Part shown: in pieces, positions 40,389-43,581 of the stretch
How positions within the stretch are numbered: position 1 is the stretch's first letter
Layout of the letters: each line of letters opens with the position of its first letter
Assembly: GCA_017399485.1 (NCBI GenBank)
Contig: JAFQCA010000006.1
Location: 62,001-126,000, forward strand
DNA from: Alistipes sp.
GTDB lineage: Bacteria; Bacteroidota; Bacteroidia; Bacteroidales; Rikenellaceae
Direction of reading: 5' to 3'
Length of the DNA: 64,000 bases
The notes under the pieces: generated by a model
What the model saw: only the letters and a program-made list of their open reading frames with translations
Told to the model about the DNA's origin: nothing
The model's database searches: none
Position numbers and translations under genes: made by a program

Positions 40389-40679
40389 TTATTTGATTAT
40401 AACGACATTTACAAGCCTTACACCTGAAATTCTATTTATTTCAGCGGCTAAGGTTTCGCGACGGTTGAATAACTCGGCTCGGACTACGCTCGATGTTATA
40501 TGAGCATACAAAACGTGATTATCCAATCTCAGCGAAGAGGTCAGCGAGGCAACCCTCTCCCCTACCACCTCGCGCCAAGTGTCGGGCAGACGTCCCTCGG
40601 CGACCTTTGCCGCAACATAAGGACGTTTGAAGAACTCCTCTAACACCTCGCCTATATGTACTGTTTCACTTCGTTTCAT
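40389..40679 (-). CDS. DUF721 (DciA-like) protein
   Basis: The 96-aa protein is of the DUF721 type; the related DciA proteins load the replicative helicase in bacteria without DnaC. Visible pattern: an N-terminal helix with EVLEEFF, then LPDTWREVVGERVASLTSSLRLDNHVLYAHITSSVVRAELFNRR, which fits the KH-like fold of DciA. It overlaps the stop of recF by 4 bp (ATGA type), indicating translational coupling. A role in DNA replication is likely but not shown for this short form. Confidence 0.82.
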   Translation of the reverse strand: MKRSETVHIGEVLEEFFKRPYVAAKVAEGRLPDTWREVVGERVASLTSSLRLDNHVLYAHITSSVVRAELFNRRETLAAEINRISGVRLVNVVIIK

Positions 40680-41764
40680 AACAGCACGTCGCCCCCTTCA
40701 ACTGTATATAGATTATACTTCGTACTTGCGCGCGACAAAATGTCCTCCAAACGAACTTTATTGCAATCGGTAATACATATTTGGCCGAAATCATCTCCCG
40801 ACACAAGTTCCAACAATCGCTCAACACGTTGCATATCCAACTTATCGAACAAATCGTCAAGCAACAATATAGGCTTTTCACCCACTGTCTCAGCCAGAAG
40901 GCGATACTGCGCCAACTTCAACGCTATGAGAAACGACTTCTGTTGTCCCTGAGAGCCATACTTGCGCAGTGGATAACCACCAATCCTAAAAATCACATCA
41001 TCACGATGAATACCTACTGTCGTGAACTGATTTACAATATCTCTTTCGCGAGAGCGTAACAGCAACTCTTCGAGTGGCATCTGCTCCAATTCCGAGCGAT
41101 AGGTTATCTCCACCTGCTCTTTATCGTCGGACAATACCTTATAATATAATGCGACCAATGGCTGCATCCGCTCTACTATCTCACGCCGTTGCTGATATAC
41201 CACGTTACCGTGCTCCGAAAGTTGCATATCGTATATCTGCAACATCGCCTCATCGGACGAAGATTTAAGGAACTTATTTCTCTCTGCCAAGACAGCATTA
41301 TATCGCATCAAGGCCTGCATCGAGTGTCTATTCATCTGCGAGAGAAAGGCATTAAGATAGCGGCGGCGCTCCTCGGCGGCATCGGTGATAAGTTCTGTAT
41401 CCTGCGGAGAGACTATCACAACGGGGAAGTTACCGACGTGGTCGGCTATACGCTCATACTCCTTACCATTGCGCTTGAGTATTTTACCACCACGACGTGA
41501 GAACGAACAGTTTACCAACTCTGCACGTCCGTCATCAGTCATATACGAACCCTCAGCGACAAAGAAATCCTCGCCGTGCATTATGCTTTGACCATCGGTC
41601 ATCGTAAACGCCGACTTTGACATCGACAGATAGTAGATAGCATCAAGAATATTTGTCTTTCCGGCGCCATTATCACCCACAAAACAATTTACGCCTTCGA
41701 CCAAAGCAATTTCGCTCTGTCGAAGATTCTTGAAGTTTATGAGTAACAATTTTTTCAGTCGCAT
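40676..41764 (-). CDS. recF: DNA replication and repair protein RecF
   Basis: RecF is an SMC-like ATPase that helps RecOR load RecA at gaps. The protein (362 aa from ATG 41764) has Walker A GDNGAGKTNI, a RecF-type central helical region, the ABC signature region around YGSQGQQKSFLIALKLA, and Walker B ILLLDDLFDKLD. An upstream in-frame ATG at 41794 adds 10 residues, but RecF proteins usually begin with MRLKKLLLINFKN. A -7 box TAACTTTG lies at 41803-41810 on this strand, so both starts remain possible. The gene is coupled to DUF721. Confidence 0.93.
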   Translation of the reverse strand: MRLKKLLLINFKNLRQSEIALVEGVNCFVGDNGAGKTNILDAIYYLSMSKSAFTMTDGQSIMHGEDFFVAEGSYMTDDGRAELVNCSFSRRGGKILKRNGKEYERIADHVGNFPVVIVSPQDTELITDAAEERRRYLNAFLSQMNRHSMQALMRYNAVLAERNKFLKSSSDEAMLQIYDMQLSEHGNVVYQQRREIVERMQPLVALYYKVLSDDKEQVEITYRSELEQMPLEELLLRSRERDIVNQFTTVGIHRDDVIFRIGGYPLRKYGSQGQQKSFLIALKLAQYRLLAETVGEKPILLLDDLFDKLDMQRVERLLELVSGDDFGQICITDCNKVRLEDILSRASTKYNLYTVEGGDVLL

Positions 41765-41802
41765 TGGCCAATAATTTTTGATGTTTTCACTCAATTACAC
41801 CT

Positions 41803-41947: not shown

Positions 41948-42625
41948 ATGGCAAAAGAGGTATTAACTCCCCAAGAGGAGATGCTTGAAAATGCACAAAC
42001 TCAAACCGAAAACTTCTTCGAGAAGAACAGCAAGATGGTGGTAGTAGCCATCGTAGTAATTTTTGCTCTTGCAGCCGCAATCTTCGGCTACAAGAAATTC
42101 GTCCGCGAGCCACAACTCAATCAGGCTCAGGAGATGCTTTATGCAGCACAGTACCGTTTCGAGCAGCAGAATGCTGACTATGCATTGGCTCTCAATGGTG
42201 ATGCAAATGCTCCCGGGTTCGCAGCCGTTGCCGAGCAGTATGCAAATACTCCCGCAGGTAACTTGGCACAACTCTATGCTGCCGCTTGCGCATTGCGTCT
42301 TGGCGAATACGACCAGGCTGAAGTTTACATCTCAAAATACTCAAAGGTGAAGGGCCTTGCTGGTGCTATGATTAACGCTATGGCTGAGGGTATTAAGGGC
42401 GATATCGCAGTTGAGAAGGGCGATTATGCTGCCGCTGCAAAGTATTTCGAGGTTGCTGCCAATGCGAGCGAGAACGATTTCACAACACCTATGTACTTGC
42501 GTAAGGCTGCTCAGGCATACCGCAAGGTTGGTGATAACGCTTCATCGGAGAAGTGCTTGAACGTTATCAAGAACAAGTATCCCGGTTCAAGCGATGCTCG
42601 CGAGGCTGAGAAGTTTATCAACTAA
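41948..42625 (+). CDS. TPR membrane protein (YfgM-like)
   Basis: The 225-aa protein has a cytoplasmic N-terminus, one membrane helix at about residues 30-47 (MVVVAIVVIFALAAAIFGY), and a periplasmic helical TPR region with repeats around AAQYRFEQQNADYALAL, YAAACALRLGEYDQAEVYI, GDYAAAAKYFEVAA and YRKVGDNASSEKCLN. That layout is like YfgM, which works with the PpiD/Sec chaperone network in E. coli. In related Bacteroidales this gene type lies between recF and ribH, and here a ribH-like gene follows after 30 bp. Confidence 0.82.
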   Translation: MAKEVLTPQEEMLENAQTQTENFFEKNSKMVVVAIVVIFALAAAIFGYKKFVREPQLNQAQEMLYAAQYRFEQQNADYALALNGDANAPGFAAVAEQYANTPAGNLAQLYAAACALRLGEYDQAEVYISKYSKVKGLAGAMINAMAEGIKGDIAVEKGDYAAAAKYFEVAANASENDFTTPMYLRKAAQAYRKVGDNASSEKCLNVIKNKYPGSSDAREAEKFIN

Positions 42626-42655: not shown

Positions 42656-43057
42656 ATGGAGCGACTCAAGATAGGTATCGTCATTGTTGATGAGCAAACA
42701 GAGTTTGCCCAACGCAATTTGGCTGCCACGATTGAGACTCTAAAGGCCATAGGTTGTACAGAGCAAAATATTCTGTTGCGTCACGCGCCGCGCCTATTTG
42801 GAGTTGCACTGACCACTCAATTTTTTGCTGAATATACCGATGTCGATGCCGTTGTAGTTTTGGCTGAGAACGATAACTCGCCTGAATATGCGGCTATGTT
42901 GTATGGGGTTACCAAATTGCAGATTTCGTGGAATATGCCCGTTTTGATTGGTGACTGCATAGTTGCCAGCGAAGTAGCCGATATGGTTGCAATGCAAAAC
43001 GAGATGGAGGCCGCAGCCCCCGAACACATATCTCCAGACCGTAAATCGATAAATTAA
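42656..43057 (+). CDS. Lumazine-synthase-like protein, catalytic residues lost
   Basis: The 133-aa protein aligns in outline with 6,7-dimethyl-8-ribityllumazine synthase (RibH). It has the N-terminal IGIVIVDEQTEFAQ strand-helix, TIETLKAIGCTEQNILL, the VDAVVVLAE strand and the PVLIGDCIVASEVAD strand. The defining catalytic segments are absent. The PGAFEIP stretch reads HAPRLFGVAL, and GxVIRGxTxHFDYV, which carries the proton-donating His, is replaced by AENDNSPEYAAML. It is therefore very unlikely to make riboflavin precursor. It is in the place where ribH is expected and has not decayed by frameshift, so it probably has a new, perhaps structural, function. Confidence 0.65.
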   Translation: MERLKIGIVIVDEQTEFAQRNLAATIETLKAIGCTEQNILLRHAPRLFGVALTTQFFAEYTDVDAVVVLAENDNSPEYAAMLYGVTKLQISWNMPVLIGDCIVASEVADMVAMQNEMEAAAPEHISPDRKSIN

Positions 43058-43147: not shown

Positions 43148-43525
43148 TTAGAACGGGAGGTCATCGACCTCAGCCATAGGCTGTTGTGGCGCAGCATAGG
43201 CTGGCTCATCTCCAAACGGTGGCATATCGGGCATAGCAGCCGCTTCGGGCGCAGCCGCAGCCTGCTTGGGCTGCACTCGCCACGCACGCACATCGGTATA
43301 CCACTTGCCATTATACTCTCGTGACTCAATATTCACCGAAACGATATAGGTCTCACCCTCCTTCAAACTCTCGGCATCGGTGGGCTTATTGAAGAATGTC
43401 ACGCATACCTTACGCGAAAACTCACTCGGCAGCTCAAACACGATATCCTGACGCTGCCACTCTCCACGTGCCGACACACCCTTTGTCACGGGTAACTTCT
43501 TATAAACAATTCCTTCGAACTCCAT
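43148..43525 (-). CDS. DUF3127 protein with SSB-like acidic tail
   Basis: The protein (125 aa from ATG 43525) has a DUF3127 beta-barrel domain (MEFEGIVYKKLP start, WQRQDIVFELP, VCVTFFNKP, GETYIVSVNIESREYNGKWYTDVRAW), likely an OB fold. A disordered Pro/Ala/Gln linker follows, and the terminal DDLPF resembles the C-terminal tip of single-strand DNA-binding proteins. The longer frame to 43567 passes through the promoter and is rejected. The tail suggests contact with SSB-interacting repair and replication proteins (inference). Confidence 0.82.
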   Translation of the reverse strand: MEFEGIVYKKLPVTKGVSARGEWQRQDIVFELPSEFSRKVCVTFFNKPTDAESLKEGETYIVSVNIESREYNGKWYTDVRAWRVQPKQAAAAPEAAAMPDMPPFGDEPAYAAPQQPMAEVDDLPF

Positions 43526-43549
43526 AACTAAACTTATTGATTTTATTGC

Positions 43550-43581
43550 CAAAGATACAAAAAACACTTTTTTTCAGCAAA
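43550..43581 (-). promoter_or_regulatory. Promoter of the DUF3127 gene (TTTG-N20-TATCTTTG)
   Basis: On the minus strand TTTG (43578-43581), a 20-nt spacer and TATCTTTG (43550-43557) match the consensus fully and end 24 nt before the ATG at 43525. Confidence 0.85.

Follow-up and report, generated by a model that had tools for sequence, protein, structure and literature searches.

Lumazine synthase (RibH) is an enzyme of the textbooks that also serves as a model for capsids and as a target for antibacterials, and its subunit is built on a parallel α/β sheet with the active site at the C-terminal ends of the strands. Among its divergent relatives, RibH2 of Brucella and Mesorhizobium (1di0, 2obx) has the same fold, and its structures have substrate-analogue inhibitors bound and the catalytic loops present. 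The archaeal pentameric riboflavin synthase (2b98, 2b99), which is also recovered in our fold search, has the lumazine-synthase fold but no longer performs the lumazine synthase reaction, and catalyses the next step of the pathway.

Then, could a RibH persist after catalysis itself has been lost? Here, we examine a gene in a 64,000-nucleotide stretch of DNA from an Alistipes sp. (GCA_017399485.1, contig JAFQCA010000006.1, positions 62,001 to 126,000; hereafter the window), the product of which is referred to as the window protein. It resembles RibH (PF00885, TIGR00114) in locus, fold, orthologous descent and the core motifs of active Rikenellaceae RibH, but the window protein lacks the active-site loops, the catalytic residues, helix α4 and the N-terminal extension of about 20 residues found in canonical RibH, and its genome lacks ribBA and ribE. 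Unlike RibH2, it has no catalytic loops and is the sole copy; unlike the archaeal riboflavin synthase, it has no active site, and its genome has neither ribE (PF00677) nor ribBA. The fold and the family are already known, whereas the open-licence PMC literature yielded no report of a catalytically dead, non-capsid RibH retained by riboflavin auxotrophs, and such a protein is, as far as that literature goes, what is new.

A ribH orthologue in its original place

The gene is located at 42656..43057 (+), where an unbroken open reading frame runs from an ATG to the stop codon, which is included in the coordinates, and encodes 133 amino acids. A gene encoding a TPR_21-domain protein with a hydrophobic N-terminal segment (41948..42625, +; PF09976, E 4.8e-6) lies 30 bp upstream, and the divergent neighbour of this pair is recF (40676..41794, -; SMC_N, E 1.5e-17), followed by a dciA-like gene (40389..40679, -; PF05258, E 2.6e-11). 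Directly downstream, on the opposite strand, is a gene for a DUF3127 protein (43148-43567, -). The TPR gene is found immediately upstream on the same strand at 124 of 124 loci with this degenerate form of RibH, and 64 of 66 canonical Alistipes loci show this arrangement as well; one chance wrong-frame read accounts for the two exceptions. An apparent TPR-RibH fusion in one genome (G012, an open frame of 451 aa) is likewise spurious, an open frame that arose by chance where the TPR gene was read out of frame.

The PF00885 profile matches residues 4-99 of the window protein with E 2.3e-5 and 24.8 bits, below the curated cut-off of 26.7 bits, and the score for the equivalog TIGR00114 is 20.5 bits, short of its cut-off of 84.6. 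Within the degenerate clade, the profile E is 1e-60. An AlphaFold (AF2) model built from 44 related sequences has pLDDT 91 and pTM 0.84, and every top Foldseek match to it in the PDB is a lumazine synthase or a design derived from one, as is each of the top 39 rows of the structure alignment search. Superposed on the Bordetella lumazine synthase (9znh), the model gives Z 17.0 and an rmsd of 1.8 Å over 119 aligned residues. The window protein is thus predicted to keep the lumazine synthase fold, and since a confident fold match is joined by a clade profile E of 1e-60, the likeness to RibH is beyond chance.

With the synteny described above, and with a RibH tree that joins the degenerate forms to the RibH of Rikenellaceae, the gene is a ribH orthologue, inherited vertically and in place. 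The sequence-only reading had recognised the ribH position behind the recF/TPR pair, the intact frame and the strand-helix outline of RibH, and it was right in each; it had also taken the gene for a paralogue, and this part has to be given up, as the genome (94.9% complete) holds no other PF00885 match. The second, catalytic ribH that had been proposed for a check is therefore not present among the matches to that profile, and neither ribBA nor ribE was found there in searches with PF00926 and PF00677.

Loss of the active site and of riboflavin genes

We compared 83 distinct degenerate sequences with 42 distinct canonical RibH sequences of Alistipes, using the numbering of the B. subtilis enzyme (BsLS). 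Val81, Ile82, Arg127, Arg/Lys131 and Lys135 are deleted and Glu58 is replaced in all 83; Phe22, which is Trp in Alistipes, is replaced in 82, and the catalytic His88 is absent from 82. The loop after β3 is trimmed (residues 70-78; 42863..42889, +); its canonical counterpart is GCVIQGDTRHFD, which includes the catalytic His. After β4 there is a deletion site (residues 99-101; 42950..42958, +) at which helix α4, the phosphate-binding Arg and the GNKG motif are gone, leaving a gap at BsLS 127/131/135 in 83 of 83. Consequently, the PGxFE and GxVIxGxTxHF motifs and the catalytic residues are deleted or replaced in 82-83 of the 83 sequences, the window's included. The loss of the catalytic motifs, already read from the letters of the window, is thus confirmed and goes further than was supposed. 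With every tested catalytic residue lost, the window protein is, by its sequence, a predicted pseudoenzyme.

The same deletion bears on assembly. In icosahedral lumazine synthase, α1 contacts α4 and the end of β4 contacts the α4-α5 loop, and α4 together with this loop makes the threefold and twofold contacts of the capsid (PMC2935281). This contact segment is deleted in 83/83 degenerate sequences, and a canonical 60-mer capsid is therefore unlikely, which weakens the earlier suggestion of a structural or cargo role of that kind.

To what extent is the rest of the pathway retained? Our genus sample comprises 121 Alistipes genomes, mostly MAGs from ruminant or herbivore hindgut according to their record titles. 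PF00885 scores separate a canonical group of 42 genomes, which reach 173-187 bits, from a second group with 12-38 bits, and a profile made from the degenerate form lifts the second group to 72 genomes, leaving 7 with neither form. No genome has both. One form or the other is present in 114 of the 121, and in all 48 genomes of at least 90% completeness. ribBA (PF00926) and ribE (PF00677) were each detected in 40 of the 42 canonical genomes, and every canonical genome has one or both of them, whereas the 79 others have neither. The window's genome is among the latter, and its RibH has no working riboflavin pathway of ribBA and ribE to belong to. Judged by gene content, Alistipes with degenerate RibH appear unable to make riboflavin, and FAD synthetase (PF06574) is present in 111 of the 121 genomes, the window's included.

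The degenerate gene is kept in 25 of 25 genomes that lack ribBA and are at least 90% complete. The 7 rib-less genomes without a detectable homologue are all less than 90% complete; two of them, G093 and G094, fall within the degenerate clade and may genuinely have lost the gene. G102 (L041), a canonical-RibH Alistipes with a genome of 1.3 Mb that is 97% complete, retains both ribBA and ribE, and among the canonical sequences of the RibH tree its RibH stands nearest to the degenerate clade.

In addition, the FMN riboswitch (RF00050) is found in 24 Alistipes genomes without canonical RibH and in no canonical genome. Where its surroundings were read (L233:1711-3123 (+), L234, L236, L237, L240 and L241), it lies directly upstream of a gene for a large TonB-dependent receptor with CarboxypepD_reg, Plug and OMP barrel domains, and a tatC-like gene is often adjacent. 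This arrangement, of which no paper was found in the open-licence PMC literature, is consistent with flavin import, and the receptor is a candidate outer-membrane flavin importer.

Selection, descent and the conserved pole

None of the 72 degenerate frames has an internal stop, and about 235 nonsense changes would be expected under neutrality in the 22 disjoint pairs from which dN/dS was estimated. The pooled value is 0.088 (bootstrap 0.072-0.104), compared with 0.040 (0.026-0.054) for 19 pairs of canonical RibH, both by a simple Nei-Gojobori count rather than a codon-model fit and for pairs of at least 75% identity. Our first estimates, 0.27-0.29, were too high because they included pairs whose synonymous sites are saturated, and came down to 0.088 under this identity limit. 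Degenerate RibH is under strong purifying selection across dozens of species.

What is kept lies mainly at the pole opposite the active site. Of the residues invariant in canonical RibH, the degenerate sequences keep 73% at the opposite pole, 22% at the active-site pole and 29% elsewhere in the core; the pole groups were defined by topology, at a stage when the motifs were already known. Four conserved motifs make up the patch: GCxxxNI in the α1-β2 loop of the opposite pole (residues 33-39; 42752..42772, +), FFAEYTDVDAV at the end of α2 and in the loop to β3 (residues 56-66; 42821..42853, +), QxxWNM at the end of α3 before β4 (residues 89-94; 42920..42937, +) and MVxxQxEME in the C-terminal helix (residues 110-118; 42983..43009, +). 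Along the protein, pN/pS is lowest in FAEYTDVDAVVVLA (0.20) and highest in the tail (0.64). A58, Y60, T61 and D64 are present in 83/83 degenerate sequences, and V63 in 98%. As a whole, the patch reads GCxxxNI, FFAEYTDVD, QxxWNMP and MVxLQxEM, and since the active RibH of most other Rikenellaceae genera carries it too, it predates the loss of riboflavin synthesis. In assembled lumazine synthase, the end of α3 is turned towards the inside of the particle (PMC2935281, channel description), and the whole patch would presumably lie on that face.

In the rpoB+rpoC tree (IQ-TREE), the degenerate Alistipes group together as a single clade nested among the canonical ones (SH-aLRT 86, not starred), which supersedes the three losses within the genus suggested by a FastTree of RecF+TPR. 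The sequence-only reading had held the gene to be repurposed rather than dying; the intact frames, the selection and the stable clade, the last from the family-tree comparison it had proposed, bear this out.

A second case was found in the sister genus g44, where the genome G195 encodes, again at the recF-TPR locus, a degenerate RibH trimmed in the two segments that are cut in Alistipes. It lacks ribBA, and its four g44 relatives have the enzyme and ribBA. G195 groups with g44 both by rpoB+rpoC (97*) and by RecF+TPR (98*), and the latter grouping with its own genus rejects a horizontal transfer of the locus from Alistipes. The first RibH tree placed G195 with the degenerate clade on a branch of 1.58, which we read as long-branch attraction. 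Because G195 belongs with g44 and the degenerate Alistipes are one clade, we count a single loss in Alistipes and another in g44, that is, at least two separate losses with the same outcome. G195 retains FAE-T-VDAV, LEWNMP and AMVGLQ-EME.

Possible reasons for retention

In our reading, the pseudoenzyme is probably retained for a non-catalytic role that RibH is likely to have had before riboflavin synthesis was lost. An Alistipes lineage would have given up riboflavin synthesis while ribH was inherited vertically; catalysis would then no longer have been selected and the active-site pole would have eroded, while the opposite pole would have been kept because it already had a second purpose, the likeliest being that of a small scaffold that binds protein. 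That the ancestral non-catalytic pole is kept in two lineages suggests such a scaffold role before catalysis was lost, and two observations, the case of G195 and the persistence of ancestral residues, favour a role that predates the loss over one gained after it. The opposite order, in which a new role as a ligand-binding protein, an enzyme or a regulator was found only after riboflavin synthesis had gone, is unlikely: the long stem branches of the RibH tree and a few near-fixed residues peculiar to the degenerate clade (K5, E116, A121) would fit it, but the most constrained residues are ancestral and common to active RibH, and the independently rib-less G195 has kept its versions of the same motifs. 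That the site of the ancestral ligand now serves to hold riboflavin taken up from outside, the protein being a flavin binder or carrier, is more doubtful still. Species with degenerate RibH must import flavin, and some lumazine synthases do bind riboflavin (for example 1kyv of S. pombe, among the Foldseek matches); on the other hand, the stacking aromatic (Phe22/Trp) is replaced in 82/83, and no part of the protein is less conserved than the active-site pole.

It is very improbable that the gene is a slowly decaying relic without function. The apparent loss of the whole riboflavin pathway and an overall divergence above that of canonical RibH could be taken that way, but the dN/dS between close species, the absence of stops in all 72 genomes and the retention of the gene in 25/25 good genomes refute it for the clade overall, so that it could hold in single species only. 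Moreover, other Bacteroidales have a normal gene or none that was found: 311 of 393 genomes are over the PF00885 cut-off, 62 high-quality genomes have no PF00885 hit, and the sole match below the cut-off is the window's own. Scarcely credible, finally, is an active lumazine synthase with unusual catalytic residues. Its predicted fold is intact, and single active-site mutations in the B. subtilis enzyme are often mild (PMC2935281), but an uncharged residue at Arg127 inactivates that enzyme (PMC2935281) and this residue is deleted in 83/83, and neither ribBA, which makes the butanone substrate, nor ribE, which uses the product, is present. The retention of a pre-existing non-catalytic role is accordingly the reading we prefer.

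The broader reading, to which we give somewhat less than an even chance, is that the RibH of Rikenellaceae, the active Alistipes enzyme included, is a two-job protein, the non-catalytic job of which sits at the opposite pole and outlives riboflavin synthesis, so that loss of the pathway has exposed it twice. A scaffold kept after pathway loss would be a natural separation of function and would point to an unrecognised role of RibH.

As to a partner, the TPR gene accompanies RibH across Rikenellaceae, and since the pair stayed together through the loss of catalysis, we guess that the membrane protein encoded directly upstream may bind the degenerate RibH, a candidate by adjacency. Coevolution of the two is not supported: the ratio of TPR distance to RecF distance is 2.20 in the large degenerate Alistipes subclade versus 1.56 in canonical Alistipes, and this acceleration is absent from the other two degenerate subclades and from G195, so that TPR is faster in one degenerate subclade only.

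A match to PF00885 need not mean riboflavin prototrophy. Of the 68 Alistipes genomes over its cut-off, 26 carry the trimmed gene, and profile-based vitamin surveys of ruminant gut genomes could therefore misread them. Since Pfam finds most of the degenerate Alistipes genes but not all, deeper remnants may also exist elsewhere in Bacteroidales. In 20 loci of other Bacteroidales families (L292-L311), we also found RibH of two types. One, which is the type found in Rikenellaceae, adjoins a TPR gene at 9 loci, 8 of them with recF in view, and begins with MATxxNLSxYD..VPSA; the other, at 10 loci, is sited elsewhere without a TPR neighbour and begins with xxxLEGKLxA, while L302 has the first type of N-terminus and no TPR neighbour. 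The two types suggest an old replacement by transfer.
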